Assembly (NCBI GenBank): GCA_025963725.1
Contig: JAOQAE010000002.1
Location: 1,482,411-1,546,410, forward strand
Direction of reading: 5' to 3'
Origin: Bacteroidota bacterium
GTDB lineage: Bacteria; Bacteroidota; Bacteroidia; 2-12-FULL-35-15
DNA: 64,000 nucleotides
The notes under the pieces: model-generated
Told to the model about the DNA's origin: nothing
The model's input: only the letters and a program-made list of their open reading frames with translations
The model's database searches: none
Shown here: piece after piece, positions 24,871 to 32,972 of the stretch
How the letters are laid out: the number at the start of each line of letters is the position of its first letter
Numbering within the stretch: the stretch's first letter is position 1
Made by a program: the position numbers and the translations under genes

Positions 24871-27519
24871 ATGAATATCCTGGATCTGAACATTATGAGA
24901 GGGCCTAACTACTGGTCTAACTACCGTCAACATATTATCATTATGAAGCTCGACATCGGCAAGTATGAAGAGCTTCCTACCAATAAGATCGAAGGATTTT
25001 CCGAGCGGATCGAAAAGATGTTCCCTTCGATGTACGAGCACCGCTGCTCCGAAGAGCATGCAGGTGGCTTCTTTGAGCGCATCAAGGAAGGGACCTGGAT
25101 GGGGCATGTGGTGGAACACATCGCGCTGGAGATCCAGAGCCTTGCCGGGATGGAATGCGGCTATGGCCGTACACGCACTGCCGGCTCTTACGGGATCTAT
25201 TATGTGATCTTCTCCTATGAGATCGAAAACGCGGGCTTATATGCCGCAGAAGCCGCTATCCGCATTGTGGAATCCCTGATCAACAATACGCCATACAACC
25301 TTGAGGACGATATCAATGAATTAAAGAGGATCCACCGCCGTGAGGCATTCGGCCCGAGCACACAATCCATCATCAACGAGGCAAAAAAGCGCAATATCCC
25401 TTTTAAGCGCCTGAACAAAGGATCTATGATCATGTTCGGACAAGGCATTCACCAGAAGAAGATCCGCGCATCCATGACCTGCCAGACCTCCTCTATTGGG
25501 GTTGACCTCGCAGGCGATAAGGATGAAACCAAGAAAATACTGAAAAAAGCATACATCCCCGTTCCTACGGGAGAAGTGATCTCCGATGAGGATGAGCTGA
25601 GGGACATTCTGCAGGAAATGAGCTTCCCGGTAGTGATCAAGCCGATCGACGGCAACCACGGCCGCGGAATCACCACCAATATCCGCAACGTGGAGCAGGC
25701 TGTTGCCGCCTTTCATATTGCGAAAACAATTTCCGACGATGTGATCGTGGAGCGTTTCATTGAAGGCTACGATTACCGCTTCCTCGTGATCAACTATAAG
25801 CTGGTGGCTGTTGCAAAGCGTACACCCGCCATGGTGATGGGCGATGGCATTTCCAGCATCAGCGAGCTGATCGATCAAACCAACCTCGATCCGAACAGGG
25901 GCGAAGGACATGAGAAGATCATGACCAAGATAAAAGTGGATGAAGTAACTGAAAATATTCTTGCAGAAAAAGGATTAACGCTGAAATCGGTATTGCCGAT
26001 GGGCCAGATCCTGCTGCTGAAAGATACCGCAAACATAAGCACAGGAGGAACATCCCGCGATGTAACCGACTTGGTGCACCCCGAAAATGTATTCATGGCC
26101 GAGCGCATTGCACGCATCATGAACCTTGATATCTGCGGGATCGATGTTGTCGCAAAAGACATTGATATCCCGATCACGAACGAGATCGGCGGCGTTGTGG
26201 AAGTGAATGCCTGCCCGGGATTCAGGATGCACCTGAGCCCTGCAAAAGGCCTTGCACGCAACGTGGCGGAGCCGGTAATGAGCATGCTGTTCCCCGAAGG
26301 ACAGCCGGCACGCATCCCGATAGTTGCCGTTACAGGCACCAACGGAAAAACAACCACCACCCGCCTTGTAGCGCACATGGCGAAACAGGCAGGCCACCGC
26401 CCGGGCTTTACCACTACCGATGGCATTTATATCAACGGCAACCTTGTTCACTATGGCGACTGTACCGGCCCTGTGAGCGCTGAAGCGGTTTTAAGCGACC
26501 CTACTGTCGACTTTGCCGTGCTCGAATGTGCGAGAGGCGGGATCCTGCGCGCAGGCCTTGGCTTCGACAACTGCAACATCAGCATCGTTACCAATATCAC
26601 TGAAGACCACCTCGGGCTGAAAGGAATTGAAACCCTTTCCGAGATGGCGAAAGTAAAAGAAGTGGTGGCTCGCAGCACTTTCGACGACGGCTACTCTATC
26701 CTGAATGCGGATGATGACCTCGTGTACGACATGCGTGAAGAGCTGGATTGCAACATTGCATTGTTCAGCATGGAGGAGAATAACGAGCGCGTTGCCCGCC
26801 ATTGCAGGAGAGGCGGCATGGCTGCTACCATCGAAAAAGGATACCTCACGATCACAAGAGGCGAATGGCAGACCAGGGTTTGCAGGATCGATAATGTGCC
26901 ATTGTCGTTCGGCGGCAAAGCCACGTCAATGGTGAAGAACATTTTGGCGGCAACGCTTGCCGGCATCATCAGCAACTTTAAGCTGGAGGATATCCGCGCC
27001 GCATTGCTTTCATTCATGCCTTCCCCTGAGTTCACTCCCGGGAGAATGAATGTGTTCAAGTTCAGCAATTTCGATGTAATGATCGATTATGCGCACAACA
27101 CCGGCGGATTTATCGAATTAAAAAAGTACGTTGACAACGTAAGCTCACCGGCTAAGATCGGCATCATTACAGCTGTTGGCGACAGAAGGGATGAAGACAT
27201 CCGTAACATCGGCTATCATGCGGCACAAATGTTCAGCCAGATCGTGATCCGTCACGATAAGGACCTGCGCGGCAGGCCGGCGGAAGAGATCACCGCGCTT
27301 CTTACAGACGGCATCAACAGTGTAAACAAGAATATTCCCGTATCCATTATTCCTGACGAACATGATGCATTGCTGCATGTAATGAACAATGCAGTGAACG
27401 GCGCATTCATCTTTGTGTGCACCGATAACGTAAAGCGCAGCATTGATTTTGTGAAGGAGCTTAAAAAAGAAAGTGAACGCCCTGACAGCAGCATGTTCAC
27501 CCTGTCAAGAGTTTCATAA
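24871..27519 (+). CDS. cphA: Cyanophycin synthetase with HxxEH N-domain
   Basis: The 882-residue protein has the three CphA domains. The N-domain (about 1-165) begins MRGPNYW and contains GHVVEH at 78-83, an HxxEH metallopeptidase-type motif. The ATP-grasp domain (about 166-480) has AGDKDETKKIL, KPIDGNHGRG (251-266 region) and EVNACPGFRMH, and adds Asp. The Mur-ligase-like domain (about 481-882) has P-loop TGTNGKTT at 488-495 and adds Arg to the Asp side chain. The product is the storage polymer multi-L-arginyl-poly-L-aspartate in the cytoplasm. It is convergent with the isoaspartyl peptidase gene. Confidence 0.95.
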   Translation: MNILDLNIMRGPNYWSNYRQHIIIMKLDIGKYEELPTNKIEGFSERIEKMFPSMYEHRCSEEHAGGFFERIKEGTWMGHVVEHIALEIQSLAGMECGYGRTRTAGSYGIYYVIFSYEIENAGLYAAEAAIRIVESLINNTPYNLEDDINELKRIHRREAFGPSTQSIINEAKKRNIPFKRLNKGSMIMFGQGIHQKKIRASMTCQTSSIGVDLAGDKDETKKILKKAYIPVPTGEVISDEDELRDILQEMSFPVVIKPIDGNHGRGITTNIRNVEQAVAAFHIAKTISDDVIVERFIEGYDYRFLVINYKLVAVAKRTPAMVMGDGISSISELIDQTNLDPNRGEGHEKIMTKIKVDEVTENILAEKGLTLKSVLPMGQILLLKDTANISTGGTSRDVTDLVHPENVFMAERIARIMNLDICGIDVVAKDIDIPITNEIGGVVEVNACPGFRMHLSPAKGLARNVAEPVMSMLFPEGQPARIPIVAVTGTNGKTTTTRLVAHMAKQAGHRPGFTTTDGIYINGNLVHYGDCTGPVSAEAVLSDPTVDFAVLECARGGILRAGLGFDNCNISIVTNITEDHLGLKGIETLSEMAKVKEVVARSTFDDGYSILNADDDLVYDMREELDCNIALFSMEENNERVARHCRRGGMAATIEKGYLTITRGEWQTRVCRIDNVPLSFGGKATSMVKNILAATLAGIISNFKLEDIRAALLSFMPSPEFTPGRMNVFKFSNFDVMIDYAHNTGGFIELKKYVDNVSSPAKIGIITAVGDRRDEDIRNIGYHAAQMFSQIVIRHDKDLRGRPAEEITALLTDGINSVNKNIPVSIIPDEHDALLHVMNNAVNGAFIFVCTDNVKRSIDFVKELKKESERPDSSMFTLSRVS

Positions 27520-27598: not shown

Positions 27599-28534
27599 TC
27601 AGTCGTTATAGATCCCGATAAAGAAATCTTCCCCGGATCTTTTCATTGCGCGGTACATTCCTTCGGAGTTAAAAGGCATTTCAATATTTCCGGATGTATC
27701 GATCGCGATCAGGCCGCCTTCTCCGCCGGCAGTCACCAGCTTTTTCATTACCACATGTTCGCAGGCCTCTTTCAGCGACAAGCCCTTATATTCCATCAAA
27801 CATGATATATCGTAAGCTACAACGGAACGGATAAAGTATTCGCCGTGCCCTGTGCAGGAGATGGCGCAGGTGTTGTTGTTCGCGTATGTTCCCGCGCCTA
27901 TGATCGGGCTGTCGCCTACCCTGCCCCAGCGCTTGTTCGTCATGCCGCCGGTTGACGTTGCAGCTGCAATATTTCCGTGTATGTCGAGCGCAACAGCGCC
28001 CACAGTCCCGAATTTTTTTTCATCTCCCGGTGTGGTATGGTCGAGAACGATCTGCCCTTCTTCCCTTGCCACCAGCAGCTGATCGTAGCGGTGCTGCACA
28101 AAAAAATATTCATCCGGCGCAAATTCAAGCCCCATATCCTTTGCAAAATCTGCCGCGCCGGAATTCGCAAGCAGCACATGCTCCGATTTTTCCATGATGG
28201 CTTTTGCAAGCAGCACCGGGTTCTTCAGGTTCCTGATCCCGGATACGGCGCCGGCCATTAATGTTTTTCCATCCATAATGGCCGCATCCATTTCATGCTT
28301 CCCTTCGTGGTTAAACACCGATCCTTTGCCCGCATTGAACAGCTCGTTGTTCTCCATCACCCGAACGCTTTCCGTGATCGCATCCAGTGCGTTGCCTCCT
28401 TCTGCAAGTATCTTGTCGCCCGCTTCAATGGCCTCTGTAAGTGCCGCTTTGTATGCCGCTTCGAGCTCCGGGGTAAGCCCGCTCCTTGTAATTGTCCCGG
28501 CCCCGCCATGTATTGCTATTGCATGCTTTTTCAT
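27599..28534 (-). CDS. iaaA: Isoaspartyl peptidase / L-asparaginase (plant type)
   Basis: This 311-residue Ntn-hydrolase starts AIAIHGGAGTI and has the autocleavage site FGTVGAVALD. Thr177 should become the N-terminal nucleophile of the beta subunit. The binding segments GRVGDSPIIGAGTYA and TGHGEYFIR also fit the family. There is no signal peptide. It cleaves isoaspartyl dipeptides, including beta-Asp-Arg, the product of cyanophycinase. Its place between two cyanophycin synthetase genes therefore suggests the final recycling step to free Asp and Arg. It is on the opposite strand, so it is separately regulated. Confidence 0.92.
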   Translation of the reverse strand: MKKHAIAIHGGAGTITRSGLTPELEAAYKAALTEAIEAGDKILAEGGNALDAITESVRVMENNELFNAGKGSVFNHEGKHEMDAAIMDGKTLMAGAVSGIRNLKNPVLLAKAIMEKSEHVLLANSGAADFAKDMGLEFAPDEYFFVQHRYDQLLVAREEGQIVLDHTTPGDEKKFGTVGAVALDIHGNIAAATSTGGMTNKRWGRVGDSPIIGAGTYANNNTCAISCTGHGEYFIRSVVAYDISCLMEYKGLSLKEACEHVVMKKLVTAGGEGGLIAIDTSGNIEMPFNSEGMYRAMKRSGEDFFIGIYND

Positions 28535-28719
28535 ATTTCCGTTTAATTAATTCCCTGCTAAATTATACATTATTATTCCCTTAAAAAACATGCTAAGCAA
28601 AGTATCTGCTGTAATGGGGCGCTGGGTATTTTTTTTCACAGGAATTTATGCTGTTGCTTTTCCCTAAACGGGCATGTTCTTTTATAAGTGACAAACACAA
28701 CCTTAAAACCCTATACACT

Positions 28720-29316
28720 ATGAAAACAAAATCAGCAAGCAAAAAATCAACAGCAGAGTACGGCATTGAAGAGTCGAAACTTATGAAATTATTTGAAGAC
28801 GAATTAAAGGATATTTACTGGGCAGAGAAAGCGCTGACAAAAGCATTACCGAAAATGGTGAAAAATGCAACTAACGAAGACCTGATCATGGCATTGGAGA
28901 ACCACCTGGAAGAAACAGAAGGACAGATTGAAAAACTGGAGCAGGTATTTGAATCGATCGGAAAGAAAGCACAGGCTAAAAAATGCGAAGCAATGGCTGG
29001 CCTTGTAAAAGAAGCTGAAGAGATCATGAAAGAAACCGACAAAGGCGCAATGCGCGATGCAGGGATCATTTCTGCAGGACAAAAAGTAGAGCACTATGAA
29101 ATTGCTTCTTACGGCACATTACGCCAGTTTGCAAAAACACTGGGCCTTGAAGATGCGGCAGAGCTGCTCGAAGAGATCCTGGATGAAGAAAAAGCGGCAG
29201 ATCAGAAGCTGACTGATATTGCTGAAGCAAACATCAACATGCAGGCTGCAGAGGAAGAAGAAGGTGAAGAAGAAGAAGCGCCTAAAAAAGCAAAAAAAGC
29301 TGCTAAAAAGAAATAA
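28720..29316 (+). CDS. Ferritin-like DUF892 (YciE/YciF family) protein with charged tail
   Basis: The ATG at 28720 gives 198 residues beginning MKTKSASKKSTAEYG; a longer frame from 28648 is not family-like. The DUF892 four-helix ferritin-like domain covers about 20-175, with KLFEDELKDIYWAEKAL and HLEETEGQIEKLEQVF supplying Glu/His metal ligands. The end is unusual: an acidic run (EEEEGEEEEAPKK) followed by a Lys/Ala tail. The family is linked to stress, but its function is poorly known. It sits in the cyanophycin locus with its own terminator before the second synthetase. Confidence 0.88.
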   Translation: MKTKSASKKSTAEYGIEESKLMKLFEDELKDIYWAEKALTKALPKMVKNATNEDLIMALENHLEETEGQIEKLEQVFESIGKKAQAKKCEAMAGLVKEAEEIMKETDKGAMRDAGIISAGQKVEHYEIASYGTLRQFAKTLGLEDAAELLEEILDEEKAADQKLTDIAEANINMQAAEEEEGEEEEAPKKAKKAAKKK

Positions 29317-29378: not shown

Positions 29379-31934
29379 ATGTTTGAGATTACTGAAACGA
29401 AAGTGATGCGGGGGCCCAATCAATGGTCGGATCAGCACACGAAACTTATTGTATTAAAACTAAAGGTGGACGGCGAAGTAAAAGCCGGACTGCTGAAGGA
29501 GATCACTGCCCTTTTCCCGGAAGTGCATCCGCATGAGCCTGTGGCAAATGAGGCAGCTGAAGCATTCAGGATCCTCGCCATCGGGCTGCAGCGCAGGGCG
29601 GGGATGAATGTGGAGTTCGGAGCGGCATCGGCAACGCCAAAGCCGGATACGTTCCGCATCCTCTTCTCCTATGAATATGAAGACGCGGGAAAAGAAGCCG
29701 CAGCTGCAGCGCTGAAGATCATGGAGGCGCTTGCGCTTGATAAGCCGGCAGGCATCGATGAGCACCTCGAAGAGCTGCGTGATACAAGAGCGTCTGAAGA
29801 CATGGGCGCTACCACCTCTTTCATCCTGAACGAGGCTCTGAGCCGGGGCATTCCATACAAGCGATTCGACAACGGATCACTCATCACGCTGGGCTACGGA
29901 AGAAAGCAAAAGAAAATGCGCACCGCCCTTGTGGATTCCACGAGCGGCATTGGCATAGAGCTGGCAGGCGATAAGGAAGAAACGAAGAAAATGCTGGAAG
30001 AAGCAAAGCTTCCGGTACCAAAAGGTGTGATCGTGTACGACGAAGAAGATCTGCTGAAAGAAATACAAGGCATGCAGTTCCCGCTCGTGACAAAACCGCT
30101 CGACGGGAATCACGGACGCGGCGTTACCACAGAGATCAACAGCATTGAAAAGGCGCTGCACGGATTACAGGTAGCACAAAAAATATCAAAGGCTGTGATC
30201 GTGGAAGAATTTATCCGCGGCGATGATCACCGCTTTCTCGTGATCAATTACAAGCTGGTGGCGGTTGCAAAGCGCACGCCTGCAAATGTTACGGGCGACG
30301 GCAAATCAACCATACAGCAGCTCATCGACAAGGAAAATGAGCATCCCGACCGCGGATCCAGCCAGGAACACCCGCTGGCACTGATCAAGGTAGATGATAC
30401 TACCAAAAAGATCCTGAAGGAAAAATCACTCACACTCGAAACCATTCTGCCGGAAGGCGAAACATTATACCTGAAAGAGATCGCGAATATCAGCGCGGGC
30501 GGCACTTCCACCGACGTTACCGATATTGTGCACCCCGAGAATGTTTTCATGGCGGAGCACATCGCAAAGCTCTTCAGCCTCAATATCTGCGGCATTGATA
30601 TACTTACAACGGATGTAAGCCAGCCGCTTGCTAAAAAGAACGGCGCCATCATTGAAGTGAATGCCGGCCCGGGCATCCGCATGCATACCAACCCGACGAT
30701 AGGCATTCCGCGCAATGTGGCAAAGCCGATCATCGATATGCTGTTCCCCGATAACGATACGCGCATTCCGCTGATCGCCATCACCGGAACGAACGGCAAA
30801 ACCACCACTACCCGCTTAACAGCACATATTTTAAAAGAGACCGGCAAAACGGTCGGATATACTACAACGGAAGGAATTTACATCGACGACCATATCATTG
30901 AAAGCGGCGATTGCACGGGATCACAAAGCTCGCAAACCATCCTCTTCGATCCTACGGTTGACATTGCGGTGCTTGAATGCGCACGCGGCGGGATCATCCG
31001 CTCGGGCCTGGGCTTCGACAGCTGCGACATCAGCATTGTTACCAATGTTTCCGACGACCACCTCGGAACTAAGGACATTGAAACGCTGGAAGAGCTTTCA
31101 AAAGTGAAGCTGGTTGTTGCGAAAAGCACGAAGAAAGACGGTTATGCCATCCTGAATGCAGATGATGATATTGTATACGACATGCAGCAATATACCAACT
31201 GCAGGATCGCGCTGTTCAGCATGGACGAGAACAGTCCGCGCATAAAAGCGCATTGCGAAAGCGGCGGAGTTGCAGCAGTGATCGAGGAAGGCTACCTCAC
31301 GATCTATAACGGCGAATGGAAAACAAGGATCGCAAAGATCGAAAGCATTCCGCTGAGCTTTGAAGGCAAAGCGGAGTTCATGATCCAGAACATACTTGCG
31401 GCAACGCTGGCAGCCATGCTGCAAACAGAGTTCAATTCGGAAGTGGTGAGAAAAGGATTATTATCCTTTATCCCTTCACCTGAAAAAACGCCGGGAAGGC
31501 TCAATATTTTCAAATTCAAAGATTTCGATTTCATTATCGATTATGCACATAACAAAAGCGGCTTTATGGAGCTGAAAAAATTCCTCGACAAAACCAATGC
31601 TTCCGAAAAGACCGGGATCATTGCAGCCACCGGCGACCGCAGGGATGAGGATATCCGGAACCTCGGCCGCTATGCGGCTCAGATGTTCGACAATATCATT
31701 ATCCGCCACGACATCGACCTGAGAGGCCGCCCGGAAGCAGAGCATTCCAAGCTGCTGATAGAAGGCATCGAGGAAGTGAACAAGCTGATCCCTGTAAAGG
31801 TGATCCCCGATGAAAAAGAAGCCATCACCTATGCGATCTCGAAAGCAAAAAAAGGATCGATGATCCTGGCATGCGCCGATAATGTGCACGCAACCATCGC
31901 CTTTGTATCGGAAACAAAATTACGCGAACAATAA
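29379..31934 (+). CDS. cphA: Second cyanophycin synthetase, N-domain motif lost
   Basis: The 851-residue paralogue keeps both synthetic sites. The ATP-grasp domain has AGDKEETKKML, KPLDGNHGRG and EVNAGPGIRMH. The Mur-ligase-like domain has P-loop ITGTNGKTT at 468-476, and YTTTEGIYI and RGGIIRSGLGFDSCD follow. The N-domain (about 1-145) begins MRGPNQW but is shorter. The HxxEH positions of the first synthetase align here with Glu61, Arg64 and Ile65. Because the P-loop is intact I do not call it CphA2. Cyanophycinase follows 9 nt downstream, so synthesis and breakdown genes are cotranscribed. Confidence 0.93.
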   Translation: MFEITETKVMRGPNQWSDQHTKLIVLKLKVDGEVKAGLLKEITALFPEVHPHEPVANEAAEAFRILAIGLQRRAGMNVEFGAASATPKPDTFRILFSYEYEDAGKEAAAAALKIMEALALDKPAGIDEHLEELRDTRASEDMGATTSFILNEALSRGIPYKRFDNGSLITLGYGRKQKKMRTALVDSTSGIGIELAGDKEETKKMLEEAKLPVPKGVIVYDEEDLLKEIQGMQFPLVTKPLDGNHGRGVTTEINSIEKALHGLQVAQKISKAVIVEEFIRGDDHRFLVINYKLVAVAKRTPANVTGDGKSTIQQLIDKENEHPDRGSSQEHPLALIKVDDTTKKILKEKSLTLETILPEGETLYLKEIANISAGGTSTDVTDIVHPENVFMAEHIAKLFSLNICGIDILTTDVSQPLAKKNGAIIEVNAGPGIRMHTNPTIGIPRNVAKPIIDMLFPDNDTRIPLIAITGTNGKTTTTRLTAHILKETGKTVGYTTTEGIYIDDHIIESGDCTGSQSSQTILFDPTVDIAVLECARGGIIRSGLGFDSCDISIVTNVSDDHLGTKDIETLEELSKVKLVVAKSTKKDGYAILNADDDIVYDMQQYTNCRIALFSMDENSPRIKAHCESGGVAAVIEEGYLTIYNGEWKTRIAKIESIPLSFEGKAEFMIQNILAATLAAMLQTEFNSEVVRKGLLSFIPSPEKTPGRLNIFKFKDFDFIIDYAHNKSGFMELKKFLDKTNASEKTGIIAATGDRRDEDIRNLGRYAAQMFDNIIIRHDIDLRGRPEAEHSKLLIEGIEEVNKLIPVKVIPDEKEAITYAISKAKKGSMILACADNVHATIAFVSETKLREQ

Positions 31935-31943
31935 AAAAAACTT

Positions 31944-32972
31944 ATGTCACAAAAAATACCGAAAGGAACATTAATACTCATTGGAGGGGCCGAAGACAAA
32001 GGCGACGGCAGCAGCAATCAAAAGAACAGGGAATACGAGCGGTTCGAGATCCTCAGCGAGCTGCTCCCCAAAAAAGATTCCCATAAAAAAAAGAGGCTGG
32101 AGATCATCACCACCGCATCGCGCGTACCTGTTGAGGTAAATGAGATGTACCGCGACGCATTTAAAAAGATCGGCTTTAAGGAAGTCGGCTTTATAAATAT
32201 GATCAACAACCCGGAAGCCGACGATCCGAAATTAGTAAAGCGGATCAATGATGCCCATGCCGTGCTTTTCAGCGGCGGAGATCAGTTCCGGCTCGCCACT
32301 ATTCTTGGAAGCTCCGATGTGATCGATGCGATCAAGGAAAAATATTTCAATGACCCGGAGTTCATTGTTGCCGGCACAAGCGCAGGCGCAATGGCCATGT
32401 CGGTGCTGATGCTGTATGAAGGAGAGAACAATGAAGCCATGCTTAGCCAGACAGTTAAATTCAGCTCCGGCCTTGGATTCATTGAAGGCTGCATCATCGA
32501 CACGCACTTTATCAAGCGGGGCCGCTTTGGAAGGCTTGCCCAGTCGATCATAATGAACCCGGCCTGCATCGGGATCGGGCTTGGGGAAGATACCGCCCTT
32601 GTGATTAAAAAGGGAAATGAAGCGGAATGCAAAGGCTCCGGGATGGTGATCATCATCGACGGGAAGGATGTTGGCCATACCAACATTGCTTATGCAAGGC
32701 AATATGCACCGCTCTGCATCGAGAACCTCAGGGTTCATATTCTTTCCAAGGGCAATGGCTATACGTTAAGGGAACGCCGGTTTGTGCCTTCAAAATCGGA
32801 TCTCCAGGAAGAGCAGGAAACAAAAGGAACCACTACGCCAACTAAACTATTACAACCGAAGAAACGTCCGGCCTCGAAAAAGCAGGTTTCCAAAAAAACA
32901 GCTGAAAAGAAAAGTGCAGCAAAGAAAACAATAAAAAAGGCAGTAAAAAAGAAGGCAGGAGCGGGGCGTTAA
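31944..32972 (+). CDS. cphB: Intracellular cyanophycinase with Lys/Ala-rich tail
   Basis: The 342-residue protein has a peptidase S51 domain at about 5-285. The nucleophile is Ser146 in GTSAGAM and the histidine is His188 (DTHFIKRGR). That spacing of 42 equals Ser132/His174 in Synechocystis CphB. GGDQFRLATI is the family substrate-pocket segment. No signal peptide is present, so it acts in the cytoplasm, cutting cyanophycin to beta-Asp-Arg. Typical CphB is about 270-290 residues. The extra 55 residues here are a Lys/Ala/Thr tail (KKTAEKKSAAKKTIKKAVKK), like histone H1. Confidence 0.93.
   Translation: MSQKIPKGTLILIGGAEDKGDGSSNQKNREYERFEILSELLPKKDSHKKKRLEIITTASRVPVEVNEMYRDAFKKIGFKEVGFINMINNPEADDPKLVKRINDAHAVLFSGGDQFRLATILGSSDVIDAIKEKYFNDPEFIVAGTSAGAMAMSVLMLYEGENNEAMLSQTVKFSSGLGFIEGCIIDTHFIKRGRFGRLAQSIIMNPACIGIGLGEDTALVIKKGNEAECKGSGMVIIIDGKDVGHTNIAYARQYAPLCIENLRVHILSKGNGYTLRERRFVPSKSDLQEEQETKGTTTPTKLLQPKKRPASKKQVSKKTAEKKSAAKKTIKKAVKKKAGAGR

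Follow-up and report, generated by a model that had tools for sequence, protein, structure and literature searches.

Gene content of the cyanophycin locus

The window analyzed here, a 64,000-nucleotide stretch of a Bacteroidota genome, carries two neighboring genes for the synthesis of cyanophycin, a nitrogen-storage polymer. Both predicted synthetases scored above the TIGR02068 cut-off for CphA1 membership (850 bits): CphA-a (882 aa; positions 24871–27519, forward strand) with 1,225 bits and its paralogue CphA-b (851 aa; 29379–31934, forward strand; also identified by a residue table and a tree, see below) with 1,026 bits. A gene for an IaaA-type isoaspartyl aminopeptidase (Asparaginase_2; 27599–28534, reverse strand), recognized by PF01112 (E = 3e-115) and by its position in the cluster, is convergent to CphA-a. 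It is followed by a gene for a DUF892 protein (28648–29316, forward strand; PF05974, E = 1.6e-59), which we take to be a ferritin-like protein of the YciE type, immediately upstream of CphA-b. A CphB cyanophycinase gene (31944–32972, forward strand; TIGR02069, 213 bits against a cut-off of 126.6) begins 10 bp after CphA-b. CphA-a stands alone in its direction, and CphA-b lies in a DUF892-CphA-b-CphB arrangement with gaps of ~60 and ~10 bp; hence, the two synthetase genes are neighbors rather than parts of one operon. The initial annotation treated the two as a pair, which needs one correction, as the genome also contains a third CphA (discussed below). At the protein level, the DUF892 product ends in an acidic run and then a Lys/Ala tail, and CphB has a long Lys/Ala-rich end (SKKTAEKKSAAKKTIKKAVKKKAGAGR) past its TIGR02069 match (residues 10–271).

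An N-domain cutting site present in CphA-a and lost from CphA-b

In the primer-independent CphA1 of Synechocystis sp. UTEX2470 (SuCphA1; PDB 7LG5, 7TXU, and 7TXV), the N domain acts as an endo-cyanophycinase, at a slow rate, and has a metal site formed by C59, H79, and H83, with E82 serving as the base (Sharon et al. 2022, PMC9262961). Cutting of polymer by this Cx19HxxEH site, which is found in 83% of nr70 CphA1s, makes primers (PMC9262961), in agreement with the N-domain hydrolase that the initial annotation had mentioned. CphA-a shares the three-domain layout of SuCphA1 and aligned with it (7LG5) end to end (phmmer E = 7.6e-268), and PF18921 covers its whole N domain (E = 5e-46). The translation of positions 25099–25125 reads MGHVVEHIA, placing H79 at 25105–25107, E82 at 25114–25116, and H83 at 25117–25119, and the coordinates and numbering first given for this HxxEH were therefore right. 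Based on the SuCphA1 alignment and the functions described in PMC9262961, codons H79-V-V-E82-H83 (25105–25119, forward strand) encode predicted metal ligands and the general base, while codons H57-R58-C59 (25039–25047, forward strand) supply the putative third ligand, Cys59, and a supporting His57. The initial annotation had missed Cys59. An assignment to the M16 inverzincins was rejected, as the third ligand is by alignment this upstream Cys rather than a downstream Glu, Asp, or His.

All eight N-site residues compared (H57, C59, F67, R70, H79, E82, H83, and E87) are the same in CphA-a and SuCphA1, with identical residue numbers, and CphA-a thus carries the complete Cx19HxxEH, with supporting H57 and R70, that marks primer-independent CphA1s. 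Moreover, C59, H79, E82, and H83 occur together in 150 of 176 aligned rows of CphAs gathered from Bacteroidota genomes (references and a few truncated genes included). Given this conservation and the identity with SuCphA1, the motif in CphA-a is not a chance occurrence. The synthetic sites (DHRRNSR, TGTNGKTTT, and TEDH) have the catalytic residues of both the G and M domains, taking residue functions here and below from PMC9427784 and PMC9262961. CphA-a departs from the SuCphA1 synthetic residues at two positions (E215 to Asp and Phe692 to Ser) and, unlike TeCphA1, has no adenine-stacking aromatic at 692 in the M site. Most a-clade enzymes have Cys, Ser, or Ala at position 692, where the b enzymes have Phe or Tyr; the sole CphA of one genome (G442) is an Ala692 enzyme. 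By analogy with the characterized enzymes, CphA-a is predicted with good confidence to self-prime.

CphA-b is 52% identical to CphA-a, and alignment places Pro, Glu, Arg, and Ile at C59, H79, E82, and H83. The aligned residues reported at the outset, E61, R64, and I65, are borne out (codons E61-A-F-R64-I65, 29559–29573, forward strand), to which we add the replacement of Cys59 and the deletion of the loop with F67 and R70. The Cx19HxxEH of primer-independent CphA1s is accordingly absent. The N domain is shorter than that of CphA-a (138 versus 157 residues), and PF18921 matches only its second half (E = 4e-9). AlphaFold2 models of both synthetases were built from few alignment rows (pTM 0.40–0.45, G domain poorly modeled); at this quality, the CphA-b model suggests a folded N domain in which a helix at 58–73 replaces the active-site helix.

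The synthetic sites of CphA-b (EHRRNSR, TGTNGKTTT, and TEDH) likewise have the G and M catalytic residues. Every residue checked is retained (SuCphA1 numbering): E215, H267, R309, R323, N394, S396, and R458 in the G domain, and the TGTNGKTTT P-loop, T522, E558, D585, H586, F692, R731, and H748 in the M domain. In gene coordinates, the H267 counterpart (His245) is encoded at 30111–30113 and the P-loop at 30783–30809, both on the forward strand. The initial annotation was therefore correct that the second enzyme retains both of its synthetic ATP sites. A CphA2 identity was considered and rejected, as the M P-loop, D585/H586, and Ser396 are all kept, leaving the M site intact. CphA2 (probable examples PDB 7TA5 and 8FXH) resembles CphA-b in being a second, motif-less CphA-family enzyme in a genome, but it has a single active site, with a non-functional M domain and no use of free Asp, whereas the G site, the M site, and Ser396 are all retained in CphA-b.

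Because the N site is lost and the synthetic sites are kept, CphA-b is predicted, with good confidence, to be primer-dependent. A published counterpart is TmCphA1 of Tatumella morbirosei (PDB 7LGN), which has none of the four Cx19HxxEH residues and requires a primer (PMC9262961); as in CphA-b, its F67/R70 loop is deleted and its G and M sites are intact. TmCphA1 differs in not being described as one of a pair, and it is only distantly related to CphA-b, such that the loss of the motif is convergent. Taken with the behavior of the enzymes in PMC9262961, these residue states make it a strong prediction that CphA-a starts chains without primer and CphA-b extends them, as the initial annotation proposed, although such a division of labor is not forced by motif loss (see the single-copy enzymes below).

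Inheritance of the split and divergence by domain

Among the 176 aligned rows, 26 were without the full motif: nine b-type, seven c-type, and three family f49 sequences, five truncated genes, TmCphA1, and the window copy a second time. In a tree of the G and M domains, with the N domain left out, the b enzymes formed one clade (UFBoot/SH-aLRT 100/100), which was recovered again with more rows (SH-aLRT 99%). The G domain strongly rejected a grouping of a and b enzymes from the same genus (AU test, P = 9e-48). Genes of the b type occur in nine genomes from two families, comprising the window's genus (g1: the window genome G000, G007, G014, G016, and a degenerate form in G006) and a second family (f41: G307, G423, G430, and G437). 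A b-profile search across the phylum (395 genomes) gave no further clear b member. The split is inherited in several relatives, a positive outcome for the comparison of Bacteroidota CphA pairs suggested in the initial annotation. A full-motif CphA is present in all nine b-clade genomes, and a-type genes are also found in many genomes that have no b. However, 93 of 123 genomes in these families have a strong CphA match and full-motif CphAs are common there, so that their presence in every b genome lends weak statistical support to dependence of b on a. As a side note, the N domain of one a-type gene (L097, G329:C7:316792-319191) is interrupted by an in-frame TGA, and the start of this gene therefore looks broken in the G329 assembly.

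Sequence divergence differed markedly by domain, based on comparing the window copies with those of G014, G016, and G007 (together, the four g1 genomes in which b is complete). N-domain identities were 90%, 79%, and 80% for CphA-a versus 73%, 53%, and 43% for CphA-b. In the G domain, they were 93%, 89%, and 87% for CphA-a and 93%, 91%, and 82% for CphA-b, and in the M domain 93%, 81%, and 85% for CphA-a and 94%, 80%, and 85% for CphA-b. The same N-domain pattern was found in f41 (57%, 53%, and 61% for b versus 85%, 73%, and 73% for a). As the G and M domains are equally conserved in both enzymes and the N domain changes fast in b, the enzyme has been kept and its N domain alone released. N-domain net charge, considered as a marker of polymer binding, showed no useful contrast between a and b.

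The fast-changing N domain could also be the mark of a decaying CphA-b with little or no synthetic activity. One b-clade member fits such decay: the G006 enzyme (L084:6042-8216, G006:C10; 724 aa) has intact G residues but has lost the M P-loop and catalytic residues (ADYPEAATL in place of TGTNGKTTT), its lid is truncated, and it would be at most a G-only synthetase. Nonetheless, b open reading frames are intact in eight genomes, conservation of the G and M domains equals that seen in a, dN/dS is ~0.04–0.05 (window versus G014), and none of the catalytic residues checked in the G and M domains is missing from the window CphA-b; decay is thus very improbable. The b enzyme of G430 carries H267Q, and this substitution, together with the loss of the M site in G006, indicates that not every b enzyme is a complete elongator.

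A further reading, also raised in the initial annotation, is that the two synthetases assemble into a hetero-oligomer, with CphA-a bringing the N-domain cutting site to the shared particle. CphA1s occur as dimers or tetramers, and SuCphA1 heterodimers engineered to have the N site on one protomer are functional (PMC9262961). Trp672, at the tetramer contact, is kept by the a and b enzymes of g1 alike. Moreover, in M segment 651–690, a and b resemble each other more within a lineage than between lineages, and across SuCphA1 columns 626–740 the likeness of a and b within a lineage exceeds that of orthologues, possibly through gene conversion. This similarity was not significant, as M-only trees were mixed and the AU test rejected neither grouping, and gene conversion would account for it equally well. 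On the same grounds, we dropped the idea that a and b have evolved in concert, or co-evolved, at the tetramer contact. With no interface signal surviving testing, separate transcription units in the window, only 52% identity between the two proteins, and many a enzymes and type I enzymes occurring without b, we regard a heteromer as improbable.

Motif loss in other CphAs

The third CphA of the window genome (L003:1249-3801; G000:C4:681820-684105) also lacks the N-site motif. Its G loop reads GHQGNG instead of GNHGRG (H267 to Gln), and an IaaA-like gene of its own lies downstream. In the c clade (seven members), motif loss is common to all and H267Q is found in most, and every c-clade genome also has a full-motif CphA (7/7). 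Nearest to this clade is a CphA on a Chryseobacterium plasmid (NZ_CP041688).

We considered whether motif loss is always accompanied by a partner enzyme, and rejected this, as three f49 genomes (G092, G218, and G393; L178, L176, and L177) each have a single CphA with HVIQH or HVIYH at the HxxEH position and without Cys59. HVIQH corresponds to the inactivating E82Q substitution as it occurs in nature. Tatumella likewise has a single CphA without the motif (PMC9262961). Hence, an enzyme without the motif can occur without a partner, and loss alone is no proof of pairing.

The cultured organism Deinococcus deserti VCD115 has two CphAs, on plasmids 2 and 1 (L211 and L212; NC_012529 and NC_012527). 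One has the complete HC..HxxEH, and the other has lost the motif and loop while keeping G and M, with identities between the two of 80% (G), 75% (M), and 57% (N). Judged from these sequences, it is an independent repeat of the split, resembling the a/b pair in its residues but differing in its independent origin, its location on two plasmids, and the absence of an adjoining CphB or IaaA gene from the b-like copy. Tentatively, we suggest that CphA paralogues may have diverged repeatedly into one enzyme that primes itself and initiates chains and another that lacks the motif and elongates them, with two or more such events in Bacteroidota (the b and c clades) and one in Deinococcus.

Gene order and the supply of primers

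Gene order bears on how CphA-b may be primed. In g1, the order is EF-P, CphA-a, IaaA (opposite strand), DUF892, CphA-b, and CphB, such that one CphB and one IaaA serve the cluster of both synthetases. In f41, it is DUF892, CphA-b, (CphB), and IaaA, then CphA-a, CphB, and IaaA, with a nearby IaaA for each synthetase and usually a cyanophycinase for each as well. The DUF892 gene is immediately 5' of b in all eight full-length b loci, and CphB follows b in most.

We propose that CphA-a is an ordinary self-priming CphA1 and that CphA-b is a primer-dependent elongator, fed most simply by primers from CphA-a, a reading to which we assign a probability of about 0.5. The G and M domains of CphA-a would build (beta-Asp-Arg)n, and its N-domain zinc site would cut some chains into primers, with the activities of intact and lost sites inferred from the published enzymes. 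CphA-b would be an old paralogue with a drifting N domain that has no cutting site and with G and M domains under full constraint. It would extend primers made by CphA-a, reaching it in trans as soluble oligomers, and may also be primed by chain ends from the cyanophycinase of its own operon. The isolated SuCphA1 N domain, supplied in trans, rendered TmCphA1 primer-independent (PMC9262961), and we infer by extension that CphA-a may feed CphA-b in vivo.

The f41 arrangement is the best argument for a different interpretation, in which DUF892-b-(CphB)-IaaA and a-CphB-IaaA, with their separate degradation genes, are parallel, separately regulated systems, the DUF892-CphA-b-CphB genes being used under a different condition such as stress. 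CphA-b would then be primed by leftover cyanophycin, independently of CphA-a, and loss of its N site would be tolerated rather than a specialization. The constant association of b with DUF892, and commonly with CphB, fits such a module, as do the single motif-less CphAs, for which leftover strands have been proposed as primers (PMC9262961). However, a and b adjoin in seven of nine genomes across the two families despite the rearranged order, and g1 has a single CphB and a single IaaA for both synthetases. We consider independent operation a serious, though less probable, alternative to priming by CphA-a.

Relation to known systems and significance

Neighboring cphA copies are already known elsewhere (PMC10687191 and PMC5178258), as are motif-less CphA1s. 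Accumulibacter, Tetrasphaera, Sideroxydans, and Ralstonia eutropha have two synthetase genes adjoining or in one genome (PMC10687191, PMC5178258, and PMC11362209), and these three papers yielded no comparison between the N domains of the two copies. No report of a motif-split CphA pair was found in searchable papers, and no paper using the name gargaphycin was found in the literature.

In 2022, a cutting site within a single enzyme was shown to explain how cyanophycin synthesis obtains its primers. The locus described here is a natural, inherited case in which one of two synthetases is without that site and has apparently lost nothing else. The pair offers a direct natural test of whether enzymes can share a primer supply and whether control over the number and length of chains lies with the cutting site. 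It is also relevant to engineering cyanophycin yield, which the N site shifts about twofold in Escherichia coli (PMC9262961). If the proposed division of labor is true, the number of cyanophycin chains would be determined by one enzyme and chain length by the other, placing the number and size of granules under the control of two enzymes.
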